From Hellea sp. (GTDB lineage: Bacteria; Pseudomonadota; Alphaproteobacteria; Caulobacterales; Maricaulaceae): 43,664 bases of DNA. This document shows, one piece after another, positions 23,446 through 40,275 of this stretch; position 1 is the stretch's first letter; every line of letters starts with the position of its first letter. The position numbers and the translations under genes are program-made. The notes under the pieces are model-generated. The model did no database searches. It was given only the letters and a program-made list of their open reading frames with translations, and was not told the DNA's origin. The stretch spans positions 1 to 43,664 of the forward strand of contig JABDKG010000009.1 of assembly GCA_013002305.1 (NCBI GenBank), written 5' to 3'.

Positions 23446-24275
23446 TAGCCGTTCCTTAAGAAATCGAGCGACGCATTATTGAACATCTCGGGATGCTCAA
23501 TCATGACCCAGTGGCCACAAGCATTCACTTCGATGAGACGCGAAGTCTCGTTGGCTTTAATGCATTTTGTCTTACCTTGCGGCGGCATGAATTCATCCTG
23601 ATGACCCCAGAACGTCAGGATCGGACAGGTCAGCTCCTGCATTCGTGAGCCGAGTTCAGGCGTTTTCATCGTGGTCAGAACTTCTTTGGGCTGATCCTGC
23701 GCCACAGCCCAGCGCATATCGATCAGGTCTTGCGTGACATGTTTCGGATCATAGGTAAAAAGCCGCATAACATCGCCTTGAGTTTTTTTACTCATGCCCG
23801 CTTTATTGGCCTCCATCATTTTAGCAATGCCCGGCATGGTCCAATAGGCGCCTTGCTCCTCAAGACAGCCAGGTCCCATCAGGATCAGTTTTTCAACAAA
23901 CTCCGGATCATCAAGCGCGATTTGTATGGCGATGCCGCCGCCAAGCGAATTGCCGACAAAACTACATTTTTCGACCCCAAGCGCCTTGAAGCCTGCCATC
24001 AAAGTATCGCAAAATAGCTGCAGCGTATAATCGCCTAAATTCAACGGCTTATCTGTATAACCGAATCCAATCATATCAGGCATGATGACGTGATATCCGG
24101 CATCCGCGAAGGCCTGCGCGTTAAACTGAAAATTGGCCCATGCGCTATTGCCCGGGCCGGACCCGTGCAAAAACACGACAACTGGATTACCCTTTTTGCC
24201 GAACTCCAAATAGTGCATCCGGATCGGGCCGGCCTGCACGTATTGGCCTTCCGGCGGGCCGCCGGGAACGGACAT
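23445..24275 (-). CDS. hsaD: Meta-cleavage product hydrolase HsaD/TesD (4,9-DSHA hydrolase)
   Basis: A 276-residue alpha/beta hydrolase. FLHGSGPGNSAWANF is the oxyanion-hole region, Ser110 in VGNSLGGGIAIQIA is the nucleophile, and the C-terminal ACGHWVMIEHP supplies the catalytic His. It cleaves the carbon-carbon bond of 4,9-DSHA, giving HIP (DOHNAA), the C/D-ring propionate, and 2-hydroxyhexa-2,4-dienoate. The ATG overlaps the hsaA stop as TAATG, and its own stop overlaps hsaE. Length matches the family. Confidence 0.9.
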   Translation of the reverse strand: MSVPGGPPEGQYVQAGPIRMHYLEFGKKGNPVVVFLHGSGPGNSAWANFQFNAQAFADAGYHVIMPDMIGFGYTDKPLNLGDYTLQLFCDTLMAGFKALGVEKCSFVGNSLGGGIAIQIALDDPEFVEKLILMGPGCLEEQGAYWTMPGIAKMMEANKAGMSKKTQGDVMRLFTYDPKHVTQDLIDMRWAVAQDQPKEVLTTMKTPELGSRMQELTCPILTFWGHQDEFMPPQGKTKCIKANETSRLIEVNACGHWVMIEHPEMFNNASLDFLRNG

Positions 24276-25450
24276 TAGACGAAGACGTCCGTGCTATCGG
24301 CGCCGAGCTGAACCGCGCCCCAATTGCGGGCAAAACCGATAGGGTTATTGGCAACGTGCGCTCTGGCGATATGGATGTCATGCCAGATATCCTGGATCGG
24401 AGAGCCGTTAAAAACGCTGCGTCCGCCTGCGACATCAAACAACATATCAACCGCCTGCATCATGCGCTCGATCACGAGGCTAGCCTGATAGCGATATTTG
24501 ATCCGGTCTTCCATCGGGATATCGATGTCATTATTGACCTTGTGCATCAGCTCATCAAAATTGCGATACATGATCGCTTCAGTCTCATCGATCAGATTAG
24601 CGCATTCCGCGACGCGGCGCGTGATATCAGGATCACCGGCAAGCCTTGTTGGATCGGTTGAACTGCCAGTCGCGTTTTCAATAAAAAGCTTAAGCGCGTG
24701 CTTAGCCGCGCCAATGGCCGGCGTGCAGACGACGCGGACGAACATCTGCGCCCACGGAATTGAATACATCGGATTGTCTTGATAGTGGACGCGGTTAAAA
24801 CCGTCCATCTGGTGGTGGGTTCGATGTTCGGGCACAAATACCGGTGTGTCGATTACAATATCGTTGGAGCCAGTCCCCTGCAGGCCCATAGCATTCCAAG
24901 TATCTTCAATCTCATAATCGGCGCGCGGCACCAAAAATGTCCGGTAGTGAATATTCTCCGGTCCTTGATCAAATATTAGGCCGCCAACCAGTACCCAGGA
25001 GCAATGACCAGAGCCGCTGCTCCAGCCCCAACGGCCCGACAGGTTAAATCCGCCCTCAGCAGTTTCGACCTTAGCTCCCGCCGGATTGTATGACGAGCTC
25101 ACTAAGGTATCAGGCCCATCGGCGTAAACTTCTTGCGCTGCCTTCGGATCCATCAGAGATAATTGGTAGGCATGAACCGCGATAATGCCCGCGATCCAGC
25201 TCGTCGCCATATCGCGCTCAGCAATATCGATTGCCGCTTTAAAAATTTCATTGGGCGTGCATTCCAGACCGCCATACTGCTTGGGCAAGAATGAACGTAG
25301 AAACCCGGTATCACGCAAGGCATCAACGGCCTTTTTGGAAATCTGGCGATTGGCGCGGCCTTCAGCGGCGCATTCAGAGACGATGTCCAGCGCACTGGAA
25401 ACATCGAGACTTTGCTCAATAATATCTTCTTTGCGTTTTGCTTGGCCCAT
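24275..25450 (-). CDS. hsaA: Flavin-dependent 3-HSA hydroxylase, oxygenase subunit HsaA
   Basis: A 391-residue protein with an acyl-CoA-dehydrogenase-like fold, typical of two-component flavin monooxygenases. ATSWIAGIIAVHAYQLS, NLSGRWGWSSGSGHCSW, and the C-terminal GGRSVFNGSPIQDIWHDIHIARAHVANNP stretch fit HsaA/TesA2. It hydroxylates 3-HSA to the catechol 3,4-DHSA with reduced flavin from a separate reductase, HsaB, which is not encoded in this window. The open frame reaches a GTG at 25456, but ATG 25450 is preferred because GGAGG lies five bases before it and overlaps the GTG. It heads the hsa-ipd run, downstream of the shared regulatory element at 25511. Confidence 0.88.
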   Translation of the reverse strand: MGQAKRKEDIIEQSLDVSSALDIVSECAAEGRANRQISKKAVDALRDTGFLRSFLPKQYGGLECTPNEIFKAAIDIAERDMATSWIAGIIAVHAYQLSLMDPKAAQEVYADGPDTLVSSSYNPAGAKVETAEGGFNLSGRWGWSSGSGHCSWVLVGGLIFDQGPENIHYRTFLVPRADYEIEDTWNAMGLQGTGSNDIVIDTPVFVPEHRTHHQMDGFNRVHYQDNPMYSIPWAQMFVRVVCTPAIGAAKHALKLFIENATGSSTDPTRLAGDPDITRRVAECANLIDETEAIMYRNFDELMHKVNNDIDIPMEDRIKYRYQASLVIERMMQAVDMLFDVAGGRSVFNGSPIQDIWHDIHIARAHVANNPIGFARNWGAVQLGADSTDVFV

Positions 25451-25510
25451 TACCACCTCCGTTATTTATCTCAAACTAACACGCCGTGCGCATTTTTCAA
25501 TGCGATTTAA

Positions 25511-25561
25511 TACGCATTCCGCCGTATTTAGGCAGTAAAATAGCCGTTTTGCGTAGCAAAC
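25511..25561. promoter_or_regulatory. Copy A of a 51-base shared regulatory element, upstream of hsaA
   Basis: This stretch aligns without gaps to 27104-27154, upstream of the ligase gene, with 35 of 51 bases identical by hand count. The most conserved blocks are TACGCATT at the left end (25511-25518), GTATTT (25524-25529) and TTTTGCGTA (25547-25555). TACGCA on the left and TGCGTA on the right are inverted repeats of each other. The left part also contains AATACG-N8-CGTATT. It lies 60-110 bases before the hsaA start, a plausible place for an operator. Confidence 0.6.
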
Positions 25562-25569
25562 AGCCTATT
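25539..25569 (-). terminator. Imperfect palindrome after the ligase gene: terminator or operator
   Basis: A 31-base imperfect inverted repeat starts three bases after the ligase stop. Paired blocks are AATAG with CTATT at the ends and TTTGC with GCAAA around a three-base centre. Read on the minus strand it ends in CTATTTTAC, a short U-run, so it could be a weak intrinsic terminator for the ligase gene. It overlaps the right half of regulatory element copy A, so an operator function is equally possible. Confidence 0.4.
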
Positions 25570-25572
25570 TAA

Positions 25573-27087
25573 TCACGATTTTAGTTGAAACTTTAAAATC
25601 TTGCCTGAGGCGTTTCGCGGCAGGTTCTCATGAAAACTTACGACTCGCGGGACCTTGTAATTGGCCATTTGTGACCGGCACCATGTGGTGACCTCCTCGG
25701 TTGTCAGATTTCCCGTCGCAACGATATGGGCATGGGTAACTTCACCGAGGCGCTCATCAGACATGCCGACGACCGCGACGTCGGCAATTTGCGGGTGCTG
25801 TAAGAGCTGTTTCTCGATCTCTGCCGGATAGCAGTTAAACCCTCCGACAATGACCATGTCCTTTTTACGGTCGGTCACTTTGATATAGCCGCGCGCGTCC
25901 TGAACGCCGATATCACCGGTTTTGAGCCAACCCTCCGGCGTTATGGTCTCTGCGGTTGCGGCCGGGTTATCCAGATAGCCTTGCATGACATTAAAGCCCC
26001 TCACCCAAATCTCGCCGGTTTCGCCGCGCGGTACTTCTTGGCCGTCATCATCGGTTATCTGTAGGTCTGTCCCCGGCAGGGGCTGGCCGCAGGTTGTGGC
26101 GATGGTTTCAAAATCATCCCCTCTGCGGCACAAGCTAACGACGCCGGTGGATTCAGTCAGGCCGTAAGCGGAGAATACATCATCAATACCGAGGTCTTCA
26201 TGCATGCGCCGGATCAGATCGACCGGAATGGTCGTCGCGCCGATCGTCGCAACGCGCAGAGACGAGATATCATGCTCGTTCAAATCCGGATGCGCCAGCA
26301 GCGTTTGAAATATTGTCGGCGCGCCCGGCATGACCGATATTTTGTCTCGCTCAATCTGCTCGAGAACAGCCTTGGGATCATAAACCGCGAGCGGATAAAT
26401 CGCGCAGCCAACCACAAGGCAGGCTAGCCAACCCGCTTTATAGCCAAAGCTATGGAAGAACGGATTGACGACCAAGTATCGGTCGTCTTCATTCATACCG
26501 ATGGCAGAAGTGAAGCTTTTGAAAACCTGAACATTTTGGCCATGGGTCGTCATCGCGCCTTTGGGCGCGCCAGTTGTCCCAGATGTAAAGATGATGTCGG
26601 AAATGTCATCATCGCTAACGGTGATTTCTGTGATGATTTTATCTGAATTTTTAACAAAGTCAGCAAAAGCATTTGGATTATCATCGTCCTTAAGAAGGAT
26701 AACTTCGTCGAGCTCTGGCAATTCTTGGCCATCCAGCATGGCCGGATAGTCATGTCCCAAAAACCCTTTAACTGTGAACAGAAGCTTGCAATTCGAGCGC
26801 CGTAAAATATCGGCCGCTTCGCCGCCTTTATAGCGCGTATTGAGCGTAACCATAATACCTCCCAGCATTTGTCCCGCGAGGCAGGCAATTATCCACTCCG
26901 CGCAATTAGGCGCCCAAATTCCGAACCTTTCGCCCTTTTTAAGACCTTTTGATTTAAGTGTTCCCGCGGCTTGCCGGACTTGATCGGCTAGCTGTCCATA
27001 GGTCAGAGTAAGCAAGCCATCTTGAATAGCCAGAGCGCTCGGCCGGCGAACTGCCTCTCGAAACAGCAAATCTGGGATTGTCGTCAT
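25573..27087 (-). CDS. fadD3: HIP-CoA ligase FadD3-like (acyl-CoA synthetase)
   Basis: A 504-residue ANL-family adenylating enzyme, the size of mycobacterial FadD3. It has the P-loop IIFTSGTTGAPKGAM, the substrate-side NPFFHSFGYKAGWLACL stretch, SAYGLTEST, the hinge TGDIG with TDRKKDMVIVGGFNCYP, and the catalytic lysine in PRNASGKILKF. FadD3 ligates CoA to HIP, the propionate released by HsaD, and so starts C/D-ring breakdown. The order of genes places the ligase upstream of hsaA and separated by about 120 bases of regulatory DNA. The start has only a weak ribosome-binding site. A medium-chain fatty acid or cyclohexane-carboxylate ligase is the general alternative. Confidence 0.8.
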   Translation of the reverse strand: MTTIPDLLFREAVRRPSALAIQDGLLTLTYGQLADQVRQAAGTLKSKGLKKGERFGIWAPNCAEWIIACLAGQMLGGIMVTLNTRYKGGEAADILRRSNCKLLFTVKGFLGHDYPAMLDGQELPELDEVILLKDDDNPNAFADFVKNSDKIITEITVSDDDISDIIFTSGTTGAPKGAMTTHGQNVQVFKSFTSAIGMNEDDRYLVVNPFFHSFGYKAGWLACLVVGCAIYPLAVYDPKAVLEQIERDKISVMPGAPTIFQTLLAHPDLNEHDISSLRVATIGATTIPVDLIRRMHEDLGIDDVFSAYGLTESTGVVSLCRRGDDFETIATTCGQPLPGTDLQITDDDGQEVPRGETGEIWVRGFNVMQGYLDNPAATAETITPEGWLKTGDIGVQDARGYIKVTDRKKDMVIVGGFNCYPAEIEKQLLQHPQIADVAVVGMSDERLGEVTHAHIVATGNLTTEEVTTWCRSQMANYKVPRVVSFHENLPRNASGKILKFQLKS

Positions 27088-27103
27088 TATTTGTCCGAAA
27101 TTC

Positions 27104-27154
27104 TACGCATTTGGCGGTATTTTCGTAACAATAGAGTATTTTTGCGTAATAAAA
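27104..27154. promoter_or_regulatory. Copy B of the 51-base shared regulatory element, upstream of the ligase gene
   Basis: Same arrangement as copy A: TACGCATT at 27104-27111, GTATTT at 27117-27122, and TTTTGCGTA at 27140-27148, with the same 36-base distance between the end blocks. It begins 17 bases before the ligase start codon, so a protein bound here would overlap the promoter or the leader. It overlaps the 28-base palindrome at 27144. Confidence 0.6.
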
Positions 27155-27171
27155 AGCGCTTTTTACTACGC
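27144..27171. promoter_or_regulatory. 28-base near-perfect palindrome between divergent ligase and racemase genes
   Basis: The arms read GCGTA, two bases, then AAAAAGC against GCTTTTT, two bases, TACGC. Only one base pair of fourteen mismatches. The core AAAAAGCGCTTTTT is a perfect 14-base palindrome. It lies about 57 bases upstream of the ligase start and about 240 upstream of the racemase start. The symmetry suits a dimeric repressor such as TetR or GntR type. It is not the AAC-N2-GTT or CAAG-N2-CTTG pattern of mycobacterial KstR or KstR2. Confidence 0.55.
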
Positions 27172-27201
27172 GGACGTAGATGGTAATATACGAGGAAAAG
27201 A

Positions 27202-27408: not shown

Positions 27409-28497
27409 ATGACTATTCTATCCGGCATTAAGATCATTGAAATTGAGGGTATTGGCCCTGCACCATTTTGCGGTATGCATTTGGCTGATTTGGGAGCAGA
27501 CGTCGTCGTTATTGAACGCCAAGGCTTGCCTACTCTTGGTAATATGGGTGATAAGACAATCACAAAACGCGGCAAACGCTTCATCAAGCTTAACCTGAAA
27601 GATGAATCCGACAGGGACCAACTCCTGAAACTTGTAGAGCAGGCCGACGGCCTAATCGAGGGTATGAGGCCCGGGGTTATGGAACGGCTCGGTATCGGTC
27701 CTGACATCTGTCATGCGATCAATCCAAAACTTGCCTACGGCCGTGTCACGGGTTGGGGACAGAGCGGACCACTATCCGAGGCGGCAGGTCATGATATTAA
27801 TTACATAGGCCTGTCGGGCGCGCTTTGGTATTCGGGTCAGCCGGGAAATCCGCCTTTCGCCCCTCCAACACTGTTGGGAGATATCGCTGGCGGTGCTTTA
27901 TACCTGACCATCGGCATTCTCGCGGCAATATTAAACGCGCGCCAAACTGGTAAAGGAGATGTCGTTGACGCAGCCATGATCGATGGCACTTCCCATATGA
28001 TGAACTTATTGTTGTCTCTTAAAGCCCAGGGAGGACTATCCTATGAACGCGGCCAAAGCATGATAGATGGTCCGCACTGGTTTGACAGCTACGAATGCAG
28101 TGATGGAAAATTCATCACGATCGGATCGCTGGAGCCAAAGTTTTATGCGCTATTACTTACGACACTGAACCTAACAGATGACCCTCTTTTTAAAGACCAA
28201 TTTAATGCCAAAAAATGGCCATTGCAAAAGAGCCGCCTGACAGAAATTTTCAAATCGGAGTCTCAACAACATTGGTGTGAACTCATGGAGGGCACCGACG
28301 TTTGTTTTGCTCCGGTATTGCATCCAGGCGAGGCAGCATTACATCCACATATCAAAAATCGCCAGATTTATAAAACCCACCAAGGGAATATCGAAGCAAG
28401 TGCCGCACCAAGATTCACTAATTTCGCTGCCAATTCAGAACGCGCCAACGCAGTAGAAACAAGTGTTTCTGAACTATTGACTGATTGGATTGCTTAA
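27409..28497 (+). CDS. Alpha-methylacyl-CoA racemase (CoA-transferase family III)
   Basis: A 362-residue family III protein starting MTILSGIKIIEIEGIGPAPF and GMHLADLGADVVVIER, the N-terminal CoA-binding pattern. The racemase catalytic pair can be placed at His128 in GHDINYIGLSGAL and Asp158 in LLGDIAGG, as in mammalian AMACR and mycobacterial MCR. DVVDAAMIDGTSHM and GTDVCFAPVL are further family marks. It inverts the methyl-bearing alpha carbon of 2-methylacyl-CoA esters, the step that makes 25R sterol side chains accessible to beta-oxidation. It is divergent from the ligase gene across the palindrome region, so it may share control with the steroid run. The ribosome-binding site is weak. No terminator is evident downstream. 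Confidence 0.85.
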   Translation: MTILSGIKIIEIEGIGPAPFCGMHLADLGADVVVIERQGLPTLGNMGDKTITKRGKRFIKLNLKDESDRDQLLKLVEQADGLIEGMRPGVMERLGIGPDICHAINPKLAYGRVTGWGQSGPLSEAAGHDINYIGLSGALWYSGQPGNPPFAPPTLLGDIAGGALYLTIGILAAILNARQTGKGDVVDAAMIDGTSHMMNLLLSLKAQGGLSYERGQSMIDGPHWFDSYECSDGKFITIGSLEPKFYALLLTTLNLTDDPLFKDQFNAKKWPLQKSRLTEIFKSESQQHWCELMEGTDVCFAPVLHPGEAALHPHIKNRQIYKTHQGNIEASAAPRFTNFAANSERANAVETSVSELLTDWIA

Positions 28498-38406: not shown

Positions 38407-40275
38407 ATGCGCAAAATATTATTGGCCACAACAGCGTTTTTACTCATGACCGGCTGCTCAGCGGATCAGAAAACAAATGCTGACTCGGGAATGTCGTCAG
38501 CCGGCGCGGCCGAAAACGAGAGTAAATCTACTGTCACAAAAGCAGCAACATCCGATGAGGACATTAACGCTAAAATCGATGCTTGGTTTGAAGCCAGTTT
38601 CATGGAAGCAATTTTTCGGAGCCCGATGTTTTTAGCTCAAATCGGCATAAAGCAGCGCATGGATGAATGGGATGAAACCTCCCGAGAAGCTGCTCTTGAA
38701 GATGTCGCCTACTACAAGGCCGGTCTCGCCGAGTTGACGTCGACATTTGACCGCGATCAACTGGATGAGTCCCATCAACTTTCTTACGATCTTATGGTTC
38801 GGTTTTTAGAACAGCAAATTGAAGATGATAAATGGTGGGAATATGGCTATCCATTCAATCAAATGTTCGGCGTCCATTCCATGGTGCCGACGTTTATGAA
38901 GAACCAGCACCCTGTTGACAATGTCGATGACGCGAAAGCTTATATTGCGCGGCTCAATGGCGTTCCGGAGTTTCTCGGGGGTGTCACCGCCAATTCCGAA
39001 TCTAGCGCGAATAAGGGGATATTGCCGCCCCGCTTTGTATATGATCACGTGCTGCGTGACGCAGCGAATATCATTACGGGCGCTCCATTTGATGATTCCA
39101 GCGACCCAAGCGTCTTGCTCGATGATTTCACCGTGAAAGTCGGAAAATTGGACATTGGTGACGATGAAAAACAAACCCTAATAGACGACGCCAAGACTGC
39201 TTTGACCGACTCTGTGAAACCTGCTTATCTCGAATTTATCGCGGTCATGGAATCCCAGCAGGCCAAAGCAACGACAGACGATGGTGCTTGGAAACTACCG
39301 AACGGGGCTGAATATTACGCCCACCGGCTTAACCGTATGACAACCACCAATATGAGCGCGGAGGAAATCCATCAGCTAGGTCTCGATGAGGTTGAACGCA
39401 TTCACGGCGAAATGCGGGCCATCATGAAACAGGTTGGATATGAAGGGACGCTGCAGGATTTCTTCGTCCATTTGAAGACCGATCCAAAATATGTCTATGA
39501 AGATTCAGATGCAGGACGTGCGGCCTATATTAAAGATGCAGCAGACCTGATTGACACAATGGAAGCCGAACTTGGTGACTATTTCTCAATGACTCCCAAG
39601 GCGAAACTTGAAGTGCGCGCTGTCGAAGCATTTAGAGAGAAATCTGCTGGTAAGGCCTTTTATAATCGTCCCGCAATGGATGGCTCTCGGCCTGGTATCT
39701 ATTATGCCAATCTCTATAAGATTACTGATATGCCAAAATATCAAATGGAGGCGCTGGCTTACCACGAAGGCATTCCGGGACATCACATGCAATTTGCTGT
39801 TACGCAGGAACTGGATATACCAAAATTCCAACGGTTCGGCAGCGCAACGGCGCACTCGGAAGGATGGGGCCTATATTCCGAATATCTTCCAAAAGAAATG
39901 GGCTTTTATGAAGATCCGTATTCCGATTTTGGACGCCTATCAATGGAGCTATGGCGCGCCGCGCGATTGGTCGTAGATACAGGCCTTCACCATAAAAAAT
40001 GGACCCGCGAAGAGGCAATCGACTATCTCACAACCAACACGCCAAATCCTGAGAATGACTGCGTTAAAGCCATTGAACGTTACATTGTCATGCCGGGGCA
40101 GGCGACGGCATATAAAATCGGCATGAACAAAATTCTCGATCTTCGCACTATGTCTAAAGAAAAGCTTGGCGATAAATTCGACATTAAAGAATATCATGAT
40201 GTCGTGCTGGGCGCAGGGCCAGTACCGCTTGATATTCTAGAGCGCCGAGTCAATGCGTGGATTGACAGCAAGTAA
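38407..40275 (+). CDS. DUF885-family metallopeptidase-like lipoprotein
   Basis: A 622-residue lipoprotein (LMTGC lipobox, Cys17), preceded by GGAGGA. The DUF885 domain follows from about residue 50 to the end. The metal motif H453-E454-G-I-P-G-H459-H460 lies in LAYHEGIPGHHMQF, and SATAHSEGWGLYSEYL, about 30 residues on, supplies the likely third ligand Glu. Family members are thought to be zinc-dependent peptidases in the envelope, but substrates are mostly unknown. It is a full-length relative of the short gene just upstream, and it ends at the strong terminator at 40285. Confidence 0.85.
   Translation: MRKILLATTAFLLMTGCSADQKTNADSGMSSAGAAENESKSTVTKAATSDEDINAKIDAWFEASFMEAIFRSPMFLAQIGIKQRMDEWDETSREAALEDVAYYKAGLAELTSTFDRDQLDESHQLSYDLMVRFLEQQIEDDKWWEYGYPFNQMFGVHSMVPTFMKNQHPVDNVDDAKAYIARLNGVPEFLGGVTANSESSANKGILPPRFVYDHVLRDAANIITGAPFDDSSDPSVLLDDFTVKVGKLDIGDDEKQTLIDDAKTALTDSVKPAYLEFIAVMESQQAKATTDDGAWKLPNGAEYYAHRLNRMTTTNMSAEEIHQLGLDEVERIHGEMRAIMKQVGYEGTLQDFFVHLKTDPKYVYEDSDAGRAAYIKDAADLIDTMEAELGDYFSMTPKAKLEVRAVEAFREKSAGKAFYNRPAMDGSRPGIYYANLYKITDMPKYQMEALAYHEGIPGHHMQFAVTQELDIPKFQRFGSATAHSEGWGLYSEYLPKEMGFYEDPYSDFGRLSMELWRAARLVVDTGLHHKKWTREEAIDYLTTNTPNPENDCVKAIERYIVMPGQATAYKIGMNKILDLRTMSKEKLGDKFDIKEYHDVVLGAGPVPLDILERRVNAWIDSK

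Follow-up and report, generated by a model that had tools for sequence, protein, structure and literature searches.

KstR and KstR2 are TetR-family regulators of the actinobacterial cholesterol regulons; they control the same gene classes as those found here, and their operators are short palindromes with the consensi TNNAACNNGTTNNA or ANCAAGNNCTTGNT. Different, short palindromes have been proposed for a TetR regulator of Caenibius tardaugens (available text of PMC12882949). According to the same text, the bile-salt cluster of Sphingobium sp. Chol11 contains a contiguous Lrp/AsnC pair (NCHOL11_RS15865/RS15860), which is described there without an operator or target and for which a role in amino-acid metabolism is suggested.

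In published descriptions, Lrp operators consist of several imperfect sites clustered on one face of the helix, two or three turns apart, with A/T centres (available parts of PMC2995911, PMC10201364 and PMC8707732); a review among these three sources calls natural Lrp sites degenerate and hard to predict. In Lrp/AsnC operators, the minor groove of the A/T-rich centres is turned towards the protein, and Ss-LrpB wraps about 100 bp (available parts of PMC2995911 and PMC10201364).

Hellea is one of two groups that dominate the steroid-degradation matches in metagenomes of Cymbastela sponges (available part of PMC5790920). Here we describe two elements in a Hellea steroid gene block that are likely to be operators of a steroid regulon governed by a tandem pair of Lrp proteins, with repression as the likeliest mode of control. 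Like the operators of the Lrp/AsnC (feast/famine) proteins Ss-LrpB, BarR and E. coli Lrp, they are built of phased imperfect sites with A/T-rich centres, and the candidate regulators carry the domains of this family. Unlike those operators, the Hellea anchors obey strict rules of hexamer and spacing that are predictive genome-wide, and the system differs from known Lrp/AsnC systems in its steroid gene targets and in two paralogues being encoded together. The contiguous arrangement of two Lrp/AsnC genes is shared with Chol11, where it lies inside a steroid catabolic cluster. The literature searched, largely papers free of subscription, held no description of an operator of the type TACGCA-N33-TGCGTA.

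Two copies of one element in the steroid gene block

The window is the whole stretch of DNA analysed, 43,664 nucleotides long, and corresponds to contig C38 of a 2.94-Mb genome of 102 contigs. It contains a fadD3 gene upstream of a minus-strand block that opens with an hsaA-like gene (Table 1). The ORF of the latter begins with a GTG at 25456, and the ATG at 25450 is the likelier start. Since best or near-best NCBIfam matches remained below the curated cut-offs (also for HsaC, 240.5 bits vs 450, and HsaD, 170 vs 400), several steroid gene names in the window are likely rather than certain.

The preliminary description had reported a gapless match at 35 of 51 bases between positions 25511-25561 and 27104-27154, with TACGCATT, GTATTT and TTTTGCGTA retained at identical spacing and inverted repeats at the ends. 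Our recount gave the same 35 of 51, the three blocks lie in register in the two copies, and the ends of both are the inverted repeats TACGCA/TGCGTA, so that the common core reads TACGCA-N33-TGCGTA. Pairwise identity of this degree is by itself no more than suggestive. Among all the one-strand 51-mers of the window, chance should yield about 0.07-0.18 pairs this similar, a number to which a reading as chance resemblance or as a functionless dispersed repeat could appeal. The inverted hexamers are far rarer, with two occurrences of TACGCA-N20..45-TGCGTA in the window vs 0.02 expected and none of 100 shuffles containing two.

The copies had also been said not to match the operators of KstR or KstR2, and we found neither consensus, both taken from general knowledge, in the two gaps. 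The Hellea elements thus differ from those short palindromic operators, which were rejected as an explanation. One KstR-like match, by the same consensus, lies at 39425-39438, outside the steroid block.

The CoA-transferase family III gene begins 261 bp from the core of copy 2, and this copy might be common to fadD3 and the divergent CoA-transferase gene.

Table 1. Positions of genes, operator copies and putative promoter boxes in the window.
Feature	Positions	Strand	Basis
Hydrolase (HsaD/BphD-like), 2-oxopent-4-enoate hydratase-like, acetaldehyde dehydrogenase, 4-hydroxy-2-oxovalerate aldolase and extradiol dioxygenase (HsaC/BphC-like) genes, downstream of hsaA	19772..24275	-	Domain/NCBIfam matches
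hsaA-like oxygenase gene, first behind copy 1	24275..25456	-	HsaA the best NCBIfam match, 317.5 bits, cut-off 450
Likely -10 box of hsaA promoter, TAGTTT, 16 bp from -35	25473..25478	-	By eye, 10 aligned hsaA upstream regions
Likely -35 box of hsaA promoter, TTGAAA, inside operator	25495..25500	-	By eye, same alignment
Full operator, copy 1, upstream of hsaA	~25487..25579	none	93-bp layout from 49 aligned sites; match of relatives' model 25492-25572, 38.8 bits
Outer half-site, copy 1, TGCGCA, 5/6 vs TGCGTA	25487..25492	none	Sequence and 49-site alignment
Core, copy 1, TACGCA-N33-TGCGTA	25511..25555	none	Pattern search
FadD3-family acyl-CoA ligase gene, behind copy 2	25573..27087	-	NCBIfam NF005801, 667 bits, cut-off 657
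Full operator, copy 2, spanning fadD3 start codon	~27080..27172	none	93-bp layout; model match 27086-27167, 37.9 bits
Core, copy 2, TACGCA-N33-TGCGTA	27104..27148	none	Pattern search
Outer half-site, copy 2, TACGCG, 5/6 vs TACGCA	27167..27172	none	Sequence and 49-site alignment
CoA-transferase family III gene, divergent from fadD3	27409..28497	+	ORF and domain search

Distribution of the element in the genome

Searching the 2.94-Mb genome for TACGCA-N15..45-TGCGTA revealed six places, against none for the reversed pattern. Taken with the count in the window, this means that the exact inverted hexamer pair is not due to chance. The spacing is N33 in five of the six cores and N34 in the other one. 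Five adjoin steroid-type genes and one precedes a tandem Lrp/AsnC gene pair; the element is rare at unrelated sites. Besides the cores before hsaA and fadD3, a third lies in the gap between a TonB-dependent receptor gene and that of a steroid-24-oyl-CoA-synthetase-like (CasG-like) ligase (356 bits, cut-off 750), a fourth at the start of the two tandem Lrp/AsnC genes, a fifth between an SDR gene and a KshA-domain Rieske gene, and a sixth at a second KshA-domain Rieske gene (KshA_C domain matches above cut-off). The stretch from the CasG-like ligase block to the Lrp pair also encodes a 651-aa DUF3604 protein (L007:9999-11954).

A sequence-only model was made from 44 sites of relatives, taken on both strands and with none from this genome, and was run on this genome. 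Ten places had E <0.002 among the 150 scored of 916 first-look candidates, and they include all six exact cores. The four added places (C53:18706, C85:38706, C66:45745 and C41:41278) adjoin, in this order, SDR and FGE-sulfatase genes, SDR and sulfotransferase genes, a TonB receptor gene, and FAD_binding_2 dehydrogenase and SDR genes; that these are steroid genes is plausible but not proven. The next-ranked place (C41:29296-29353, E 0.12) is joined to an exact TGCGTA-N18-TACGCA at C41:29329-29358. This weak site (G000:C41:29296-29358, or L007:2894-2956), located between flavin oxidoreductase and MFS transporter genes, is probably an eleventh operator, which would give about 11 sites in the genome.

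Conservation and targets in related genomes

We surveyed 99 genomes, this one included. Some TACGCA-N30..36-TGCGTA match was present in 29 of them, and 14 were judged by eye to be site-bearing among the matches listed (spacing N32-34, A/T-rich flanks). Six matches in G006, G010, G021, G047 (two) and G054, again among those listed, were taken for chance by eye on account of other spacings or G/C-rich flanks and stand outside the sets of 49 and 54 sites used below. The matches of the 15 site-negative genomes were also excluded, G023 and G087 having exact N33 among the matches listed; G025 (N32) was counted as site-bearing, with its site outside the set.

In a sample of 619 kb (40 stretches of 13 other genomes and five sequences of this genome), 58 pairs of the hexamers were found at spacings of 5-79: 49 with N33, three with N32, two with N34 and four at other spacings occurring once each, a tally biased by the choice of the stretches through their N30-36 matches. 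The N15-45 search of the genome and the N6-36 search for outer pairs described below are free of such selection for exact spacing.

Homologues of hsaA (E <=1e-60) occur in 10 of the 99 genomes, each time with an N33 core upstream. Homologues of fadD3 were found in 8 of the 33 relatives' loci searched, and all eight have a model site at the fadD3 start, weaker in score (12.5 to 28.1 bits). Thus, each of the two window copies has kept its position in relatives, with stronger conservation of the one at hsaA; the sites of related genomes are not independent of each other.

At 53 of the 54 sites, an ORF of 120 codons or more starts within 250 bp and reads away (ORFs were called mechanically, and a few, among them the sole ORF at L100, might not be true genes). 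The remaining site is found in G001, 90 bp ahead of a fragment of Lrp1 where a contig ends. Clustering of the targets in this genome and its relatives, with one member per cluster annotated, gave hsaA (10), a kstD cluster (10), SDR (7), KshA-like (7 + 2), CasG-like ligase (6), HsaB-like reductase (5), SnoaL-like (5), TonB receptor (4 + 1) and Lrp1 (4). Targets seen in single cases include an IpdE2-like dehydrogenase, a carboxyltransferase and an enoyl-CoA hydratase; the names KstD, HsaB and IpdE2 rest on matches below cut-offs. Non-steroid neighbours also exist, as two radA-like genes are divergent from a site.

Chance resemblance or a functionless dispersed repeat could account for the pairwise identity of the two window copies, but is contradicted by the genome-wide count, the fixed spacing, the coherent targets and the conservation, with an inner sequence that varies between fixed anchors, and we consider such an origin extremely improbable. 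Chance duplication in particular was rejected on the genome-wide pattern count and the spacing tally. On the DNA side, it is almost certain that the element is genuine and conserved and serves as an operator in a steroid regulon. The proposal of a duplicated site, at which an undescribed regulator of two steroid transcripts would bind, is thus supported by rarity in the genome and conservation in relatives.

Anatomy of the operator

Alignment of 49 sites revealed that the core is part of a larger operator with the layout TGCGTA-N18-TACGCA-N33-TGCGTA-N18-TACGCA, 93 bp in length. Therefore, of the 51-base element proposed earlier, the two copies are real and the length is not: the 45-bp core is the middle of the 93-bp operator. 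With the T of TACGCA as position 1, 47 of the 98 arms have an outer TGCGTA (5 or more of 6 bases matching) that starts precisely at -23, vs a total of 20 at the other 52 offsets. Both outer half-sites are present with at least 4 of 6 matches, within one base, in just 19 of the 49 sites, so the outer parts of the operator are degenerate; each window copy has one good outer half-site (5/6) and one poor (3/6).

A search for TGCGTA..TACGCA at spacings of 6-36 gave N18 in six of nine places in this genome. The same share was 2/2 in G004, 7/11 in G010, 5/7 in G021 and 5/8 in G035, all of which have the Lrp pair, and no match was obtained in G009, G012 and G018, where no Lrp1 was found. The reversed control of this search gave 4 places here and 0-10 elsewhere; since it is not empty, the exact N18 spacing, and not the count, is the evidence.

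GC content along the aligned sites changes with a period of 10.5 bp from about -25 to +70. None of 500 shuffles reached the power of this periodicity, and the same was true for the inner 33 bases alone (shuffles ignore the kinship of the sites). The alternation of A/T and G/C spans about nine helical turns, a phasing to be expected if the DNA is wound round an octamer of Lrp. If a dimer site consists of TACGCA and a G/C partner about nine bases on, there would be four dimer centres about 29-34 bp, or about three turns, apart. The operator accordingly displays several helically phased sites with A/T-rich centres, a trait of Lrp-type operators. An AraC-type reading of the half-sites was dropped in favour of the Lrp pair and the 10.5-bp phasing.

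A tandem Lrp/AsnC pair as candidate regulator

The fourth core of the genome, the one with N34, precedes Lrp1 (158 aa), which forms with Lrp2 (155 aa) a tandem of genes with overlapping ends (C41:38625-39568). The two proteins are 29% identical. Both have an AsnC-type HTH and a RAM ligand-binding domain (PF13404 and PF01037, above cut-offs), and profile comparison matched them to Lrp-type proteins of solved structure (about 6e-22 and 6e-23). The preliminary description, right about a site in two copies, had missed this pair on another contig together with the 93-bp layout and the regulon of about 11 sites.

Close Lrp1 homologues (at least 68% identity) were found in 12 of the 99 genomes, with the second paralogue adjoining in each. 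All 12 are among the 14 genomes judged site-bearing by eye from the matches listed, vs 0 of the 85 others; the two site-bearing genomes without Lrp1 are G002 (77% complete) and G006 (82% complete). Lrp1 is in two pieces on separate contigs in G001, and a stop codon interrupts its frame in G025; both genomes were left out of the protein alignment (A1), which thus holds 10 of the 12. The recognition-helix region of Lrp2 is nearly invariant in the 12 genomes.

Besides this genome, three relatives have a core before Lrp1. Scanning contigs with two very specific peptides yielded 16 named Lrp1-family loci, mostly from Hellea MAGs and with Hellea balneolensis DSM 19091 also among them, which places the source of the window with marine alphaproteobacteria of this kind. 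Of these loci, 15 with full-length Lrp1 were scored, and the model matched directly before Lrp1 at ten (some also gave training sites) and not at L064, L067, L072, L074 and L077. A site before the regulator's own gene, a common though not universal trait of Lrp proteins, is therefore found here.

Since Lrp1, the sites and hsaA nearly coincide, co-occurrence alone leaves room for another regulator of the pathway; G004 and G025, which have Lrp1 and sites without hsaA (E <=1e-60), provide a small separation of the two. A LysR, TetR, AraC or nucleoid protein might bind, with the Lrp pair being merely a member of the regulon: the site before the pair would fit a regulated gene as well, and in one relative (L106) a LysR gene is divergent from the Lrp1 site. 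However, LysR was seen only once among the annotated genes facing a site, nucleoid proteins are not expected to be confined to one pathway, and about nine turns of phased A/T tracts are, from general knowledge, unlike a single TetR, LysR or AraC operator. We regard such a regulator as unlikely and assign the operators with good confidence to the tandem Lrp pair, which is predicted to bind them.

Among 385 genomes of the class, an Lrp1 homologue (E <=1e-30) was found in four: this one, G247, G342 and G421. In the latter two (Lrp1 homologues at E ~1e-57) the operator is absent, with one chance-like pair in G342 and none in G421, and a search of the family around G421 (5 genomes) added nothing. 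G247 belongs to another family; it has Lrp1 and the operator between CasG-like ligase and SDR genes (L095, G247:C10:33001-52000), acquired perhaps by horizontal transfer.

Promoters and the sign of regulation

Alignment of upstream regions covered 10 of 10 members for hsaA, 9 of 10 for kstD and 6 of 7 for Rieske genes. Inspection of the 10 hsaA regions by eye showed TTGAAA in seven and close variants in three, followed 16 bases further by TAnnnT in nine and TATTCC in one; in the window, the -10 box falls just outside the outer half-site of the operator. Because the operator covers the likely hsaA -35 box and reaches over the fadD3 start codon, we favour repression by blocking of RNA polymerase, with moderate confidence, as the argument is one of position and some Lrp proteins activate.

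The Lrp pair could instead bind and activate, upstream wrapping aiding RNA polymerase on a steroid signal. Dual regulators are known among Lrp-type proteins (available parts of PMC10201364 and PMC2995911), 48 of the 73 listed target starts lie 30-85 bp from the core (mechanical ORF starts), and the hsaA operator is mostly upstream of the -35 box. Against this, both that likely box and an outer half-site are inside the 93 bp, and the start codon of fadD3 is covered. We view activation as possible but the less probable mode.

For repression, the following mechanism can be proposed. A complex of Lrp1 and Lrp2, the most likely binder of the operator, would place one dimer after another along the sites, at intervals of about three helical turns, and the resulting octamer would wrap the DNA. 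Without inducer, the bound complex would block RNA polymerase and keep the genes repressed; a steroid intermediate, perhaps a CoA ester, may loosen it. More tentatively, and doubtful as a whole, Lrp1 and Lrp2 may form a mixed octamer of heterodimers, in which one type of subunit would read TACGCA (Lrp2 being the better candidate, given its nearly invariant recognition-helix region) and the other the weak G/C partner. Such heterodimers, placed in alternation, would then wrap 93-110 bp to give a nucleosome-like particle, which would open when a steroid intermediate binds.

Related pairs in sphingomonads and significance

Plasmid-borne homologues of Lrp1 in sphingomonads are about 42-52% identical (21 records). 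On Novosphingobium and Sphingobium plasmids (L086, L087 and L088), Lrp/AsnC genes, mostly paired, lie in degradative clusters that contain Rieske, acyl-CoA ligase and dehydrogenase genes, and L086 has two Lrp/AsnC pairs about 7 kb apart. An operator common to the sphingomonads was rejected, as the model finds nothing in L086-L088 and L082-L083 (E <=0.05), and the N33 hexamer pairs there do not recur beyond two copies. The three plasmid-borne regions examined, which contain degradative genes, are without the Hellea operator.

The analysis provides a defined 93-bp operator, a list of targets and a candidate regulator pair, which are testable in Hellea balneolensis DSM 19091. As an unusually strict operator of the Lrp type, it would be useful for studying DNA recognition and wrapping by Lrp octamers, and the Lrp1/Lrp2 system for asking why paralogues stay side by side.
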